Positions 523-7,391 of a DNA stretch of 64,000 nucleotides are shown in pieces. The notes under the pieces were generated by a model. The model searched no databases and had not been told where the DNA came from. It saw only the letters and a list, made by a program, of their open reading frames with translations. How positions within the stretch are numbered: the first letter of the stretch is position 1; each line of letters begins with the position of its first letter. The DNA is from Magnetospirillum sp. (GTDB lineage Bacteria; Pseudomonadota; Alphaproteobacteria; Rhodospirillales; Magnetospirillaceae): contig JANQAI010000008.1 in the NCBI GenBank assembly GCA_024707145.1, forward strand, positions 62,001-126,000, read 5' to 3'. The position numbers and the translations under genes were made by a program.

Positions 523-984
523 TTAGTGCACGCCGCTGTCGCCCACGGCTTCGCGCACCAGCGCCACCACCTGAGGAAGCGCCGTCGCCACCTGGGGCGA
601 CAGGGGCGCGCCGGCGGCGAACTCGCCCCCCTCGACGCCGATCACCGTCAGCCTGGGCGGCAGACGGCCGAGCAGGCGGGCCATTTCCACCGCCTCGGCC
701 AGCCCGAACTGATGGCTGCTTTTGGGGAACAGGCCGGCCGGCAGCGTCTCGGCCTCCACCTCCCAGCGGCGGATGGAACCGGGCGATGCGCCAGAACAGG
801 TGGCGTCCACCACCACCACGGCGTCGAAGCCCTGCCAACGGGCCATCAGGTCGGTGCCCTCGCCATGATGGGCAAGGACGGTGACGCCGGGCAGGTCCAG
901 CGCCGCCACCGCGTCAGCGAGTTGGGGGCCGACGGCGTCGTCACCGCGGAACGGATGACCGATGCCGACGACCAGGGCGCTCAT
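523..984 (-). CDS. Hydrogenase maturation protease (HyaD/HybD/HoxW family)
   Basis: Endopeptidase that clips the C-terminal tail of the [NiFe]-hydrogenase large subunit after nickel insertion. The 153-residue protein begins MSALVVGIGHPFRGDDAVG, the family glycine-rich start with the acidic nickel-sensing residue, followed by VVVVDA with a conserved Asp near 65 and HQFGLAEAV with the conserved His near 90. Length fits the family (about 150-160). The ATG at 984 was chosen because the family motif starts there; the upstream in-frame extension is not conserved-looking. It starts 10 bp after the EpmC-like gene, so the two are probably co-transcribed. Its likely substrate is HydA, which ends in DPCISCATH plus a short tail. 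Confidence 0.88.
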   Translation of the reverse strand: MSALVVGIGHPFRGDDAVGPQLADAVAALDLPGVTVLAHHGEGTDLMARWQGFDAVVVVDATCSGASPGSIRRWEVEAETLPAGLFPKSSHQFGLAEAVEMARLLGRLPPRLTVIGVEGGEFAAGAPLSPQVATALPQVVALVREAVGDSGVH

Positions 985-994
985 GCCCAAACGC

Positions 995-1663
995 TCACGA
1001 ATGGTCGGCGAACCAGCGGGCGAAGAAAGTGTCATCGCCTTCCTGGCGCAGATTGCGGGTGGGGCCGCCATCGTCGTCGATCAGCTCCATCTGGTGCAGC
1101 CAGCGGACGATCTTGCGGAAATGGGCCACGTTCTGCAGGTTGGCGCCGCCTTCCATCCAGTTCTGCTCCAGGAAGGCCAGGATGGAGGGCTGGCCCAACT
1201 CGGCCTCCCACAGGATGCCCAGCAGCGAGCACAGCGCCTCTTCCACGTCGCGTTCGGGGCAAAACAGGGTCTGCACCGCGTCGGCCTCTTCCCGCTTGCC
1301 GCTTTCCGGGCCGCAGCCCAGGCCGAAATCCAGCACCGCGCGACGCTCGGGCGCCGCCAGCTGATAATGGCCCACCTCGTGGATCAGCACGCTGGGCTCC
1401 ATGCGGATGGCCACGTTGACGCCATCCCAGGTGAAGTGGGTCTTGGGATCCACGTCCAGGATGCCGAAGCCGAACTGGCGGCACAACTCGACGCCCTCGG
1501 CGTGGTGCTTGGGCTCGGAGGACAGCGTCATCAGGTCGCCGTCGGGGACCAGCGCGGTGACGCGCTCGAACACGCGACGGGCCAGGATATCGTCGCCCAG
1601 CGCCGCCTTGAACTCCGGCAGCAGGGGCAGCAGGGTGTGGTGGTCGACAGGTGTCAGCATCAT
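995..1663 (-). CDS. EpmC-like (YfcM/DUF462) metal-binding protein
   Basis: 222 residues. The core shows HEVGH near residue 96, then ERRAVLDFGLGCGP and a downstream acidic stretch RDVEEAL. This resembles the HExxH..A..RR..DFG..C.P pattern of EpmC, the iron-dependent hydroxylase of elongation factor P in Enterobacteria. No EpmA or EpmB is seen here. The gene lies 10 bp upstream of the hydrogenase maturation protease in the same direction, hinting at a job linked to hydrogenase or EF-P maturation. ATG codons at 1663 and 1660 are both possible. Family call is from motif recognition; the substrate is unknown. Confidence 0.6.
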   Translation of the reverse strand: MMLTPVDHHTLLPLLPEFKAALGDDILARRVFERVTALVPDGDLMTLSSEPKHHAEGVELCRQFGFGILDVDPKTHFTWDGVNVAIRMEPSVLIHEVGHYQLAAPERRAVLDFGLGCGPESGKREEADAVQTLFCPERDVEEALCSLLGILWEAELGQPSILAFLEQNWMEGGANLQNVAHFRKIVRWLHQMELIDDDGGPTRNLRQEGDDTFFARWFADHS

Positions 1664-1785
1664 GATGGCGGCGTTTTAGCGCCTTTGCCCACCTCCGCCA
1701 ACGAGAAACCATCCAAATCCCCGGCCCACCGTGCCGGAACGCCATGGACGTGTTATCCTGGCAGCGTCGCTTGGAGGGCATCGCC

Positions 1786-2319
1786 ATGTTCAAGGACTTT
1801 CCGCTCGCCGAAGTCTACCGCCTGCTGGAACCGGGCCCGGTGGTCCTGCTGACCACCGCCGAGGACGGCCGCGCCAACGTCATGTCCATGTCCTGGCACA
1901 TGATGGTGGAGTTCACCCCGCCGCTGGTGGCCTGCGTGGTCAGCGGCAACGATTTCAGCTTCCGGGCGCTGCGGCGTACCGGCCAATGCGTCATCGCCAT
2001 CCCCACGGTGGAACTGGCGGAGCAGGTGGTCGCGGTGGGCAATTGCTCGGGCCGCGACACCGACAAATTCGCCGCCTTCGGCCTGACCCCTGCGCCAGCC
2101 GAGAAGGTGGCACCGCCGCTGGTGGCCGAATGCTTCGCCAACCTGGAATGCAAGGTGGCCGACGACGCCCTGGTGGACGACTACAACCTGTTCATCCTGG
2201 AAGTGGTCAAGGCGTGGATCGACCCCGCCCACAAGGAACCCCGAACCATCCACCATCACGGCTATGGTCACTTCGTGGTGGACGGCGAGACCATCACGCT
2301 GAAGTCGAAGATGCCGTGA
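1786..2319 (+). CDS. Flavin reductase family protein (FMN-binding split barrel)
   Basis: 177 residues. The order of motifs, VVLLTTAEDGRANVMSMSW, PPLVACVVS, F..LRRTGQCVIAIP and a late CKV region, is that of the flavin-reductase-like FMN-binding domain, which uses NAD(P)H to reduce free flavin or carries bound FMN. The ATG at 1786 is preferred over an upstream ATG at 1744 because GGAGGG lies 8-9 nt before it. It stands alone between two minus-strand units, so its partner oxygenase or redox chain cannot be deduced. A histidine-rich HHHGYGH near the C-terminus could bind metal. Confidence 0.8.
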   Translation: MFKDFPLAEVYRLLEPGPVVLLTTAEDGRANVMSMSWHMMVEFTPPLVACVVSGNDFSFRALRRTGQCVIAIPTVELAEQVVAVGNCSGRDTDKFAAFGLTPAPAEKVAPPLVAECFANLECKVADDALVDDYNLFILEVVKAWIDPAHKEPRTIHHHGYGHFVVDGETITLKSKMP

Positions 2320-2355
2320 TCACCCCCACCCCGCCCCGCGAGGGAGGGAGGAGTG

Positions 2356-2739
2356 TCAATCCCCCTCCCCCAGCGTGCTGGGGGAGGGTTGGGGTGGGGG
2401 CTGCGCCAACGCCTCCGCGATGAGTGCCGTCACGCTGTCAGGTGCCTGCAGGACCTCTTCGTTCCAAAAGCGCAATACCCGCCACCCTTGCCGCCGCAGG
2501 AAGACGTCCCGACCTGCGTCATGCCGGCTTTCCGCATGTTGTCCGCCATCGGTTTCGATGGCGAGGCGAAGCTTGACGCACGCGATATCCACGAAATAGG
2601 GGCCGACCGGATGCTGGCGCCGGAAACGCCACGCCGGGAAGGTACTGGTAACCAACCGCCACAAGGCGCGCTCCGCCAGGGTAGCGGTTTGGCGAAGGGA
2701 ACGGGCGCGGGTCTTGGTTTTTTCGGAAAGCCTTGCCAT
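2356..2739 (-). CDS. DUF559 (Vsr-like) endonuclease-domain protein
   Basis: 127 residues: a basic N-terminus, then LAERALWRLV, FRRQHPVGPYFVDIAC, LAIETDGGQHAE and WRVLRFWNEEVL. These are the DUF559 signatures, a restriction-endonuclease-like fold with the D..E.DG.QH catalytic-type residues. The last ~15 residues (PPPQPSPSTLGEG) are encoded inside a REP-like palindrome. The gene is bracketed by such palindromes at 2361-2401 and 2755-2840 and lies just after hydA. The reading frame runs on from a shifted hydA frame, but that is not a true fusion. Function is unknown; such genes are scattered between palindromes in many genomes. Confidence 0.75.
   Translation of the reverse strand: MARLSEKTKTRARSLRQTATLAERALWRLVTSTFPAWRFRRQHPVGPYFVDIACVKLRLAIETDGGQHAESRHDAGRDVFLRRQGWRVLRFWNEEVLQAPDSVTALIAEALAQPPPQPSPSTLGEGD
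2361..2401. repeat. REP-like palindrome, DUF559 3-prime side
   Basis: CCCTCCCCCAGC pairs with GCTGGGGGAGGG around a short loop, followed by GGTTGGGGTGGGGGC. The same sequence in opposite order occurs at 2755-2840. It overlaps the end of the DUF559 gene. Confidence 0.6.
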
Positions 2740-2754
2740 GCGGTTACAGCCCCC

Positions 2755-2840
2755 ACCCCAACCCTCCCCCGCTCCGCGGGGAGGGTGTGTCAGCCCCCCT
2801 CCCTCAGCTTGCTGGGGGAGGGCCGGGGTGGGGGCCTTCC
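2755..2840. repeat. REP-like double palindrome, DUF559 5-prime side
   Basis: Contains CCCACCCCAACCCTCCCC, CTCCGCGGGGAGGG, then CCCTCAGCTTGCTGGGGGAGGG and GGGGTGGGGG. It lies between the DUF559 start and the hydA stop and shares its unit with 2361-2401. Confidence 0.6.
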
Positions 2841-2843
2841 AAG

Positions 2844-4140
2844 TCACCCCCGATCCACCTCCAGCTTGAGAAAGTGGGTCGCGCAGGAAATGCAGGGGTC
2901 GTAATTGCGGATCGCCTGTTCCGCCCGCCATTTGATGGTTTCGTCGGGCTGGCTCAGATTGGCCTGCACCACCTTGGCCAGGTCCAGTTCGATGACCTTC
3001 TGGTTCTGGGCGGTGGGCGGGACGATGCGGGCCTCCTGCACCGTGCCCGCCGCGTCGATGCGGTAGCGGTGATAGCAGATGCCGCGCGGCGCCTCGGTGC
3101 AACCATGGCCCTCGCCCGGATGAATGTCGGCCTGGACGAAGGGGGCGTCGGGTTCCGCATAGCCGCGCACCAGGGCCAGGGCGTCCTCGCACACCTGCAC
3201 CAGTTCCACCGCGCGCACCACGATGGATTTGAACGGGTTGCGGACCACCGCCCCCAGGCCGACGGCCTGGGCGGCATCCTTGGCCAGCACGCCCAGCTTG
3301 TCGTAGTTGAGATTGTAGCGGGCCAGCGGCCCGACATGATGGGCGCTGCCGTCGCGGGCCACGCCGTGCAGGGCATTGGACCAGGGCACGTGCTCCTCGT
3401 CCATGTGCTTGAGGAAGTCGGGCACCGCGATGTCCAGCCCGCGCGAGGTCACCAGCCGGCCTTCGTGGATGGCGTATTCGTCGGGATGGCGCAGCGCCAT
3501 GAAATTGTAGTCCTGCTCCAGGCTCGGGGAAGTCGAAGCCGCCCACCAGCTTCACTGTGGCGATGGAGGTTTCCAGCCCCCATTCCAGCTCGTCCTCCAG
3601 CGCCCGGATGGCGCGACGCGACGGCGCCTTGTGGAAACCACCGATGCGCAGGTTGACCGGATGGACGGCGCGGCCGCCGCCCACCGTCTCGATGATGTCG
3701 TTGCCCAGCTTCTTCAGCCGCAACGCCTTTTCCACCAGCGCCCGGTCCACCTTGGCCAGTTCCAGCGCATCGGCGAGGCCGAGGAAATCGGGGGCGTGCA
3801 GCATGTAGACGTGCAGGGCGTGGCTTTCCAGCCACTCGCCGCAATAGATCAGCCGGCGCAGGTCGCGGATGGGCTTGGGCACGGTGATGCCCAGGATGGC
3901 CTCCATGGCCTGGGACGCCCCCATCATGTAGGCGATGGGGCAGATGCCGCAGATGCGGGCGGTGATGTCGGGCACCTCGGCATAGTCGCGGCCCTTGAGG
4001 AAGGCCTCGAAGAAACGCGGCGGCTCGAAGATGCCGAAATGCAGCTCCTTCACCTGGCCGTCGCGGATCTTGACCGACAGCGAGCCCTCGCCCTCGACGC
4101 GGGCCAGGGCCTCGACCTTGATGGTGCGGGTGTCAGCCAT
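2844..4140 (-). CDS. hydA: Group 3b [NiFe]-hydrogenase large (alpha) subunit, one apparent frameshift
   Basis: Catalytic subunit carrying the NiFe site of the cytoplasmic NADP-linked hydrogenase/sulfhydrogenase. N-terminal RVEGEGSL and ARICGICP (first Cys pair) and C-terminal DPCISCATH (second pair plus the cleavage histidine and a nine-residue tail) are all present. The two halves are in different frames: the join is at CCAGGCTC (3518-3525), where the minus strand reads GAGCCTGG and one extra C breaks an otherwise continuous ~431-residue protein. The start is the ATG at 4140, overlapping the hydD stop by 8 bp, as expected for translational coupling. The lesion shares its context with other frameshifts here and is probably an artefact. 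Confidence 0.9.
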
Positions 4141-4909
4141 GGCGGTCGGCCTCCTTGCGGAACGCGTCGGCATTGGCGTTGAAGCTGCGGAACAGGCGCT
4201 GGATCTCCCCGCCGTCCTTGCCCAGTTCAGCCAATTTGGCCGCCAGGGCGACGGTGTTGGGCGTCTCCATGGGGCCGAAGCAGCCGTAGCAGCCGCGGTC
4301 GATGCCGGGGCACAGGGTGCCGCAGCCGGCCTGTGTCACCGGCCCTAGGCAGGCTTCGCCGGCCGCCACCATACGGCAGACCACGCCGTTTTCCTTGCAT
4401 TCCATGCACTGGGAATGGCGCGGCACCATGGGCTTGCGGTGGTTGAGGGCGGCGCCCAGAACCTCCAGCAGTTGGTGCTTGTTCACCGGACAGCCGCGCA
4501 GTTCGAAATCCACCCGCACATGGTCCGAGATGGCGGTGGAAGTGGTCAGGGTGTCGATATATTCCGGGTGGGCGTAGACGGCCCGCACGAAGTCGCGGAC
4601 GTTGGCGAAGTTGCGCAGCGCCTGGATGCCGCCCGCGGTGGCGCAGGCCCCCAGCGTGATCAGCACCTTGGACTGCTTGCGCACCTCACGGATGCGCATG
4701 ACGTCGTGCGGCGTGGTGATCGAGCCCTCCACCAGCGAGATGTCGTAGGGCCCCTTCTCCACCTTGCGGGTCGCCTCCAGGAAATAGCTGACCCGGAGCT
4801 GGTCGGCGAGCGCCAGCAGCTCGTCCTCGCAGTCCAGCAGCATGAGCTGGCAGCCGTCGCAGGACGAGAACTTCCACACCGCGAGCTTGGGCTTTGGACG
4901 CTGGGCCAT
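4133..4909 (-). CDS. hydD: Group 3b [NiFe]-hydrogenase small (delta) subunit
   Basis: Relays electrons from the NiFe site through Fe-S clusters. 258 residues with CDGCQL near residue 18 and GACATAGG near 97, then [24 protein letters not shown] and a Cys-rich C-terminal region ([18 protein letters not shown]) supplying cluster ligands. No Tat signal is visible, as expected for a cytoplasmic enzyme. The ATG at 4909 is two bases from the hydG stop at 4912, and the stop overlaps hydA. The order beta-gamma-delta-alpha is the classical one. Confidence 0.93.
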
Positions 4910-4911
4910 GA

Positions 4912-5769
4912 TCACAGCTCCCGCGTGGTGAACAGGTGTTCGATGTCGCCGTAGCAATAGACCGGCCCGTCCTTGCACATGAAGGTGGGGCCGAACTGGC
5001 AATGGCCGCACAGGCCGATGCCGCACTTCATGTTGCGCTCCAGCGTCACCCAGATGCGGTCGCTGGTGATGCCCTTCTCGTGCAGGGCGTCCACCGCCGG
5101 CTTGGTCAGGCTTTCCGAGCGGCAGACAAAGGCCACCGAGTTCTCTCCGTCCAGCTTGGCCGCCTTGACCGCCGCCGCCACGCTGCCCACCCGGCCGCGA
5201 TAGCCGGCCGGGGCGGAGTGCACGGTGACGTGCACGTTGGTGTCGAAGCGGCCGCGCCAGGTGTGCAAATCGTCCTCGTAGAGGATGTCGTCCACCCCGC
5301 GCGAGCCGTAGCACAGGACCACCTTGCCGAACTCGTTGCGCCGCGCCAGCACCTCCAGGATCAGCGGGCGCAGGGGCGCCAGGCCGACGGTGCCGGTGAC
5401 GAAGATGACGTCGTTGCCCACCACCTCGTCGATGGGCCAGGGCCGGCCGAAGGGACCGCGCACGCCGATCACCGCGCCGGCCTTCAGCTTGGCCATCTCG
5501 CGGGTAACCGAGCCGACCGCGCGGATGGTGTGGACCAGCTTGGTCCGGTCGCGGCAATCGCCGCTGATGGAGATGGCCACCTCGCCCACGCCATAGGCGT
5601 AGAGCATGTTGAACTGGCCGGGACGGAAGCTGAAGGGCTGGCCGTCCTCGGCCTCCAGCGCCCAGGTAAACACGCCGGCCACCTCGCGTTTGAGCCGGCG
5701 GATGCGGAACAGGCGCGGCACCATGGGATCGGTCATGGGGACCATCGCGGGCGTAGCACTGCCGTCCAT
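4912..5769 (-). CDS. hydG: Hydrogenase/sulfhydrogenase gamma subunit (FAD/NAD(P)-binding)
   Basis: Diaphorase subunit exchanging electrons with NAD(P)H. The ferredoxin-reductase fold is clear: [12 protein letters not shown] with [10 protein letters not shown] (flavin site, residues ~50-70), [12 protein letters not shown] (nucleotide site, ~127), and a C-terminal [2Fe-2S] ligand set [13 protein letters not shown] (~250-270). 285 residues, normal for the family. GGGGAGG lies 6 nt before the ATG at 5769. It follows hydB by 12 bp. The second residue of the nucleotide-site GGxG motif is Thr here, which may tune nucleotide binding. Confidence 0.92.
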
Positions 5770-5781
5770 GACGGACCTCCC

Positions 5782-7391
5782 CTATTCGTCGCAGGCACCC
5801 GGTTCGGTCGCCAGTTCCAGGATGCGCAGGCGGTCGCTCATCAGGCGGCGCGCCATGATGGGGACGAAGCGCTTGTAGATCTCGTAGCCGAGCACCCGGT
5901 CGCTCTCGATCTTCTTGCGCAGGCAGGCGCCATCCACGCTGATGGCGCGCACGGTGTCCACCGCGCGGGCGTCGTTGCTCCACTGGTAGGGCGCCACCAG
6001 CCAGCTCCAGCCGATGATCTCGCCCGCCTCGATGGTTTCCAGGACGACGGATTCCCGGCCGGGTACGAAGAACTCCAGCGACACCTGCCCGGTGCGGATC
6101 AGGAAGAAGCAGTCGGCCGGCATGCTCTGCCGGTACAGAAAGGTGCCCGGCTTGAACACGTGGTTGGCGCAGCAGCCCACCACGATGGCCAGGGCGTCCG
6201 GGTCCATGTCGGCGAAGAACGGATGCTGGGCCAGCAGCGGCCCGAGGTTTTCAACCTGCACCATGGCTTCCTCCCGCATTGTTGCGCCGATGGCGGCGAC
6301 CTCGGCGGTGATGTCGATGCCCACCGGGCACCAGGTGATGCAGCGGCCGCAGCCGACGCAGCCGGTGGTGCCAAACTGTTTTTCCCAATTGGCCAGCTTG
6401 TGGGTGATCCACTGGCGATAGCGCGCCCGCGCCGACGTGCGCAGGGCGCCGCCATGCACGTAGGAGAATTCGATGGTGAAGCAGGAATCCCAGCGCCGCC
6501 ACCGCTCGGCATGGTCGCCGGTGAGGTCGGTGACGTCCTCCACCGTGGTGCAGAAGCAGGTGGGGCACACCATGGTGCAGTTGCCGCAGGTCAGGCAGCG
6601 GCTCGCCACGTCGTCCCAGCGCGGATGTTCCGGCACGGTGTCCAGCCGCGCGGCGACCCCGGCATCCATGGTCCGGCCCATGGTGGCGCGGGCGTTGGCG
6701 CGGGCGGCATCGGCGGCCGCCGCATCGCCCTCCGCCGCCGGTTCCGCCGCCAGCCCGGCCAACAGGGCGCGGCCGCGCTCGCTGCCGGCATCGGCGAGGA
6801 AGCGGGCCGGCGCCACCTCCACCAGGCGGATGTCGTAGCCCTTGGTCACCTCGGGGCCGGTGCCCATGGAGGCGCAGAAACAATTCCCCCCGCCTCGCCG
6901 CATTCCACCGCCACCACGAAGGCGGCGGCCAGCCGACGCTGGTAGCCCGGCTCGGCGAAGTCCTTGTCGCCGAACACGCGGGCCTGCACCGCCATGGCGG
7001 CCAGTTCGCAGGCGCGGACGCCGATGAACGCCATGGGCGCCGGCTCAGGCGCGGGCGGTTCCAGGGCGAAGCCGTCCTCGGTGCGGCGGGCGGCGAACAG
7101 GCGCTGGCGCGGCGGGTAGAGGAAGCGCTTCCATCCCTGCGGCGCGGTGGTATAGCCGAACAGGGCGCCGTCATCGCGGCGGCGCAGGCGGTAGCGCCCG
7201 CCCTCGCGCTCGTCGCCCCAGCCGGCGGGCAGGTCCGCCATGGTATCGATGTCGTCGTAGATGACGGCGCCGTCAGCGACACGTGGACCGAGGACTCGAT
7301 AGCCCTCGGTCTTCAAGCCGGCGATCAGCCGGGCGAGGCCGTTCCCATCCAGGACGACCGGCGCACCGACGGAGGTGTCCACCCCAGGCAT
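5782..7391 (-). CDS. hydB: Hydrogenase beta subunit (two 4Fe-4S clusters) with C-terminal cNMP-binding domain; one apparent frameshift
   Basis: N-terminal ~170 residues ([19 protein letters not shown]) followed by [10 protein letters not shown] form the HydB core. Cluster motifs [11 protein letters not shown] (~266-276) and [11 protein letters not shown] (~345-355) bind two [4Fe-4S] centres that wire HydG to HydD. A run of six C at 6886-6891 is one base short, splitting the frame at the CFC motif; restoring it gives 536 residues. After the second cluster the frame continues without a stop into a CRP-like cyclic-nucleotide-binding fold (~386-526). GGGAGGAAGCC precedes an internal ATG at 6264, so the cNMP module could also be translated separately. 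ATG at 7391 opens the operon. Confidence 0.85.

Follow-up and report, generated by a model that had tools for sequence, protein, structure and literature searches.

The gene at positions 995-1663 of the window, the 64,000-nucleotide stretch of Magnetospirillum DNA analysed here, encodes an HExxH protein that we take, at slightly better than even odds, for a diverged metalloenzyme related to EpmC whose target is EF-P already modified by EpmA. EpmA would first attach (beta-)lysine to EF-P and the EpmC-like enzyme would act afterwards; its most likely activity is a metal-dependent hydroxylation of that lysine, the reaction that EpmC (YfcM) performs in E. coli, with Fe(II) putatively bound by His95, His99 and either Glu141 or Glu142; both the substrate, EF-P, and its hydroxylation as the reaction are what we infer. 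The tight association with a hyaD-type hydrogenase maturation protease gene would then be a local operon arrangement placing two separate functions on one transcript.

The EpmC-like gene and its family

The features at the left end of the window that bear on this question are as follows.

523-984, minus strand: HyaD-type hydrogenase maturation protease, 153 aa, intact (TIGR00072, 117 bits, cut-off 47.45; Pfam HycI, 47.4 bits, cut-off 23)
995-1663, minus strand: EpmC-like metalloprotein, the subject gene (open reading frame of 222 aa; 41-sequence family alignment A1)
1238-1243, minus strand: Glu141-Glu142, invariant, candidate third (carboxylate) metal ligand (A1 columns and structural model)
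1367-1381, minus strand: HExxH motif HEVGH, residues 95-99 of the EpmC-like protein (both histidines invariant in 41 sequences)
1744-2319, plus strand: flavin reductase-like protein (Pfam Flavin_Reduct, 108 bits)

The initial annotation was right that an HExxH protein is encoded 10 bp before a hyaD-like gene on the same strand. Relatives at E≤0.001 turn up in 32 of the 199 genomes sampled from the order; a reading frame conserved in this way is more than chance, and we have rejected a chance open reading frame. The closest named relatives are Magnetospirillum records, and Magnetospirillum aberrantis SpK shares the window's layout, running from the hydrogenase cluster through the flavin reductase and the EpmC-like gene to hyaD; no match was found in the plasmid collection. 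The neighbour at 523-984 is a member of the HyaD/HycI proteases (TIGR00072), whereas the EpmC-like protein is not, with no match to the TIGR00072/HycI family. Among 73 family rows (a set in which some genomes are counted twice, as a named and a second record) the motif begins HE in 69 and HD in three, with one row carrying HEMTH outside the search pattern. The C-terminal half of the family (SLLGILWEAEL..P.ILAFLEQNWMEGG) is strongly conserved and has no EpmC counterpart.

Taken on its own, the window protein is ambiguous between two families. It scores 14.5 bits against Pfam EpmC (PF04315) and 14.8 bits against Peptidase_M50 (PF02163), neither of which reaches its gathering cut-off (23.8 and 27.2 bits respectively), and the two matches cover the same ∼30 residues; the EpmC match spans profile positions 46-78 of a 162-position domain and so falls short of a full-domain alignment. 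A PDB search with this protein alone returned nothing relevant (best E 0.57). The likeness to the EF-P hydroxylase claimed by the initial annotation is therefore weak for the single protein, but it is better for the family profile, which finds YfcM first: among 177,635 distinct PDB sequences the top match to A1 is E. coli YfcM/EpmC (3wtr/4pdn, E=0.0012), followed by an M50 protein at E=0.99. Moreover, when the profile was run through 179 genomes of the phylum, all eight matches outside the family fell within EpmC genes located by PF04315. Single members give a more mixed picture, with 37 of 41 matching Pfam EpmC at E≤0.5 (best 2e-6) and 35 of 41 matching M50 at the same threshold (best 0.002). 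Ten other members were scanned singly; only one (L029) exceeded the EpmC cut-off, at 28.1 versus 23.8 bits, EpmC was ahead of M50 in seven, M50 was ahead or level in the M. aberrantis protein (L045) only, and one (L022) matched neither.

Profile comparisons lean the same way. With HMMER, A1 scores EpmC sequences at up to 26.7 bits and M50 sequences at up to 16.1 bits; with hhalign its alignment to 22 EpmC sequences has a probability of 95.5 (E=1.5e-8) and that to M50 a probability of 90.3 (E=1.5e-6), the M50 set in both comparisons being 18 rows of which one (L129) is a wrong 18-residue piece. As controls, a YbeY profile showed no similarity to A1 by hhalign (probability 0.2), and EpmC against M50 gave a hhalign probability of 3.5 and no HMMER match. 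The EpmC profile produced one weak match (L099) that reads as an ArdC-like HExxH protein. The EpmC similarity extends over 30 columns by hhalign and up to 53 residues by HMMER, and of the 15 EpmC-invariant positions in the 30 aligned columns the window protein keeps eight by our count. A relationship of the family to EpmC is thus likely, resting on a short stretch, and the balance tips towards EpmC as the better match once the 41 members are taken together.

The resemblance to EpmC/YfcM consists of the HExxH motif followed by ..A...RR...DFG....P(D/E) over ∼30 residues, a glutamate-bearing helix after the HExxH helix, and the occurrence of the family in EpmA-positive genomes. It differs from EpmC in length (222 aa, versus 190 in the solved YfcM), in having GLGxGPE where EpmC has GYWYxPD, in the absence of the SxDNL block from the window protein, and in the family's lack of similarity beyond the 30 to 53 residues. 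In the best reading the window protein likely works like EpmC, but as it fails both the Pfam cut-off and full-domain alignment it is not classed here as a member of EpmC. The likeness to RseP-type site-2 proteases (M50) takes the form HExGHYxxA...........GxGPE, also over ∼30 residues, but the window protein is far under the M50 cut-off and has no strongly hydrophobic segment (hydropathy maximum 1.24, versus 2.29 in one RseP), and the N..P.P.LDG motif is found in none of the 73 family rows; we have rejected an M50 protease.

The AlphaFold2 model of the window protein is confident and mainly helical (mean pLDDT 93.1, pTM 0.91); helix 90-102 carries HExxH, and Glu141-Glu142 come shortly after the beginning of the helix that follows, 137-155; a core-only model of residues 60-206 has a mean pLDDT of 66.3. 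In the report on YfcM (PMC4231759) the metal is bound by two histidines of one helix, His59 and His63, and by Glu98 of the helix after it, so that the predicted ligand order in the window protein is compatible with the YfcM 2-His-1-carboxylate site. His95 and His99 align with the EpmC histidines, and Glu141/Glu142 would be the equivalent of YfcM Glu98. YfcM was neither among the 35 Foldseek matches to the full model up to E 10 (none at E≤0.001) nor among the six chains at Z≥2 (best 3.4) in a VIA comparison with 277 chains, a result with which a YfcM fold (a partial UPF0054 fold) is still compatible. A protease with glutamate as its catalytic base would tolerate HDxxH poorly, and the HDxxH of three of the 73 rows fits a metal site better than such a protease.

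EpmA, EF-P and the distribution of the gene

The remark in the initial annotation that EF-P modification genes are not nearby holds for the window, where EF-P and aminomutase queries found no match, but not for the genome. On the same contig as the EpmC-like gene (contig positions 62998-63663), and 81-83 kb away outside the window, lie efp, a lysine 2,3-aminomutase-like gene and epmA. EF-P is recognized by a domain match at contig positions 144657-144827 (TIGR00038, 236 bits, cut-off 185.8) and has the lysine loop IVQPGKGGAF (PGKGG). The aminomutase-like gene adjoins efp (positions 1761-3149 of locus L100) and scores 484 bits against TIGR03822 (cut-off 396); against the EpmB model TIGR03821 it reaches 240 bits, under the cut-off of 369, so the supply of beta-lysine for EpmA is likely but not assured and the odds of an EF-P role are slightly lowered. 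EpmA is encoded at contig positions 146181-147152 (383 bits), and a PF04315 search of this genome found no EpmC. The distance between the EF-P genes and the EpmC-like gene is no argument against a role in EF-P modification. A search around 85 carrier loci, in which some genomes are counted twice, found no EF-P, EpmA or EpmB gene in their flanks; of the 16 class carriers outside the order, flanks were taken from 8.

Across the order, EpmA is found above the TIGR00462 cut-off in 60 of 199 genomes, comprising all 32 carriers of the EpmC-like gene and 28 of the 167 non-carriers, so that there are 28 EpmA genomes without it. In a sample of 385 genomes of the class EpmA is present in 17 of 18 carriers versus 102 of 367 others; the carriers are 18 of 23 matching genomes, the other five (G411, G482, G575, G593 and G703) being weak matches that read by eye as RseP. 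The single exception is an assembly of 440 contigs (G715) in which the gene is only a fragment, at base 1 of its contig. These genome counts are not independent, because EpmA is present throughout the order's two carrier families (45 genomes in the sample), and a count by family is fairer: all eight carrier families of the class are among the 55 EpmA-positive families of ∼160-177, for which the chance would be ∼6e-5 to 1.5e-4 on the assumption, not wholly true, that families are independent. EpmA and the group 3b hydrogenase, a pair without a known link, also associate at p=5e-4 in the order sample. EpmC itself (PF04315) occurs in 24 genomes of a phylum sample of 200, the alphaproteobacterial share of which is not given, and all 24 are outside the class. 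With EpmA found in all carriers sampled from the order, and also in the genome that the window comes from, there is no need for the new substrate envisaged by the initial annotation.

The hyaD-type neighbour and hydrogenase

Beyond the flavin reductase gene the window contains a hydrogenase cluster (2844-7391) that is most like the ShyA/HydA type, a type which the label 'group 3b' of the initial annotation presumably fits.

2844-4140, minus strand: NiFe hydrogenase large subunit, group 3b-like (ShyA/HydA models, below their cut-offs; frame broken at ∼3454-3545)
4133-4915, minus strand: hydrogenase small subunit (Oxidored_q6; 79% identical to the M. aberrantis subunit)
4912-5769, minus strand: FAD/NAD(P)-binding hydrogenase subunit (domain and family models; comparison with M. 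aberrantis)
5782-7391, minus strand: iron-sulfur subunit, HydB/ShyB-like (frame broken near 6885-6891; runs on into a cyclic-nucleotide-binding-like part)

Compared with their intact M. aberrantis homologues the large subunit (at 3454-3545) and the HydB-like subunit (at 6885-6891) are each split over two frames, reflecting either a decaying hydrogenase or assembly errors; the genome is listed as 91.57% complete and 6.31% contaminated. Between the flavin reductase and the hydrogenase there is a DUF559 domain (∼2407-2721, minus strand), which has no counterpart gene at that place in M. aberrantis and is flanked by a G-rich repeat (GGGGGAGGG..GGGG.GGGGG) present in three copies (2380-2400, 2750-2770 and 2814-2834) and in none of 100 shuffles.

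The check proposed with the initial annotation was co-occurrence with group 3b hydrogenases, and the gene proves to be present regardless of hydrogenase, the outcome that the annotation had named as refuting its idea. With 3b genomes defined by large-subunit matches at E≤1e-70 (49 genomes, leaving out G015, a contig-end fragment at 1.9e-27), the large subunit is found in 10 of 32 carriers versus 39 of 167 non-carriers in the order (p=0.37); 22 carriers have no 3b hydrogenase, and 39 of the 49 3b genomes have no EpmC-like gene. Within the two carrier families the figures are 10 of 32 versus 6 of 13 (p=0.49). In eight carriers the 3b large-subunit query found nothing at E≤1e-10, so that by this measure they have no NiFe hydrogenase. 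When the whole order is counted, a NiFe large-subunit match of any kind is more frequent among carriers (24/32 versus 50/167, p=4e-6), but this association fades inside the two carrier families (24/32 versus 7/13, p=0.29), and across the 199 genomes the gene shows no dependence on hydrogenase.

The proposed coupling to hyaD stands as an operon-like arrangement, yet only the window's family and its near relatives have it. The pair occurs at 13 distinct loci, with a 4-bp overlap in ten, a 1-bp overlap in two and the 10-bp gap in the window (our own gene calls, made with a codon-model caller). Nine of the order's 32 carriers, all members of one family (f1), have the pair, as do 9 of 45 named loci, none of them from Azospirillum. 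A 3b hydrogenase is present in eight of the nine pair genomes of the order sample, and in seven of those eight it is on another contig or more than 170 kb away. Conversely, a protease gene lies within 500 bp of the large subunit in 29 of the 49 3b genomes, including two carriers (G133 and G161) in which the EpmC-like gene is elsewhere. The simplest account of the pairing is that the protease gene came to stand behind the EpmC-like gene in an ancestor.

In G126 a hyaD-type protease gene (L008:1064-1498; TIGR00072, 58.4 bits, above the cut-off) follows the EpmC-like gene and no 3b hydrogenase was found; it is possibly an orphan protease. G094, of the same genus, has EpmA and a 3b hydrogenase and is without the EpmC-like gene or a close hyaD-type protease (a match at 1.2e-11 only), which looks like a joint loss of the two genes or a gap in the assembly.

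Hydrogenase subunits flank the EpmC-like gene at 1 of 40 loci of one set and 2 of the 45 named loci. At L033 the EpmC-like gene has, 140 bp away and in divergent orientation, a different NiFe hydrogenase (1138-3494; large and small subunits of NiFeSe/group 1-like type) that adjoins an IS3-family transposase, with no hyaD at this locus. With one representative taken per cluster, the gene has chemotaxis, glycosyltransferase, amino-acid transport and queC genes beside it in Azospirillum, and aroA- and panE-like genes in other members of the window's family.

Alternative explanations and implications

Among the alternatives to an EF-P-directed enzyme, we give most credence, though still rather little, to an EpmC-related metalloenzyme that has another protein or a small molecule as its substrate and whose link to EpmA comes from shared ancestry. 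The carriers of the order belong to two families that are both fully EpmA-positive in the sample, the gene neighbourhood offers no EF-P link, and the conserved C-terminal half lacks an EpmC counterpart, all of which such an enzyme would accommodate. It accommodates less well the EpmA-positive state of all eight carrier families of the class sample, and its nearest relative, EpmC, has EF-P as its reported substrate. We regard as distinctly improbable a more far-reaching reading, in which a still unnamed enzyme family performs the last EF-P step in those alphaproteobacteria that have EpmA and lack EpmC, possibly with another chemistry or target atom, and in the window's family is under joint control with hydrogenase maturation.

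It is a shade less probable again that the protein is a hydrogenase maturation or protecting factor working with the adjacent HyaD-type protease, at least through recruitment to that task in the window's family; a maturation role was one of the two ideas of the initial annotation. The translational overlap with hyaD is conserved at 12 of the 13 distinct loci, nearly all pair genomes have a 3b hydrogenase, NiFe large-subunit matches are commoner in carriers, and both the window and M. aberrantis have a 3b cluster close by, with the other NiFe hydrogenase 140 bp off at L033. Against this are the many carriers without a 3b hydrogenase and 3b genomes without the gene, the lack of association with 3b overall and the fading of the any-hydrogenase association within the two families, the scarcity of hydrogenase subunits in the flanks, the remoteness of the 3b hydrogenase in most pair genomes, the placement of proteases beside the large subunit in genomes such as G133 and G161, and the transposase beside the L033 hydrogenase; we have rejected the hydrogenase-factor reading. 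Least probable of all is a soluble HExxH metallopeptidase, with an M50-like motif or of the zincin kind. The window protein does score level with EpmC against M50, hhalign joins the family to M50 with appreciable probability, and the top two VIA matches, both weak, are ArdC (Z 3.4) and a metallocarboxypeptidase (Z 3.1); the HDxxH rows, the missing LDG motif and hydrophobic segment, and the lead of EpmC over M50 in the PDB search, in HMMER and in most single scans all speak against it.

In the open-licence literature we found nothing joining EpmC and hydrogenase and, among the matches listed, nothing on an EpmC-like protein of this kind in alphaproteobacteria, which is no proof of absence. A published survey of 1137 genomes gives 358 EpmA and only 143 EpmC proteins (PMC6544042), and many lysylated EF-Ps are therefore without a known final enzyme. 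If the gene is a diverged EpmC relative acting on EF-P, a second, distant EpmC-like family in alphaproteobacteria would supply a candidate for part of this gap between EpmA and EpmC, and it would be an independent system for asking what the last EF-P modification step serves. Joint control with hydrogenase maturation, if true, would tie polyproline translation to hydrogen metabolism. As a matter of caution, the gene should not be annotated as a hydrogenase factor.
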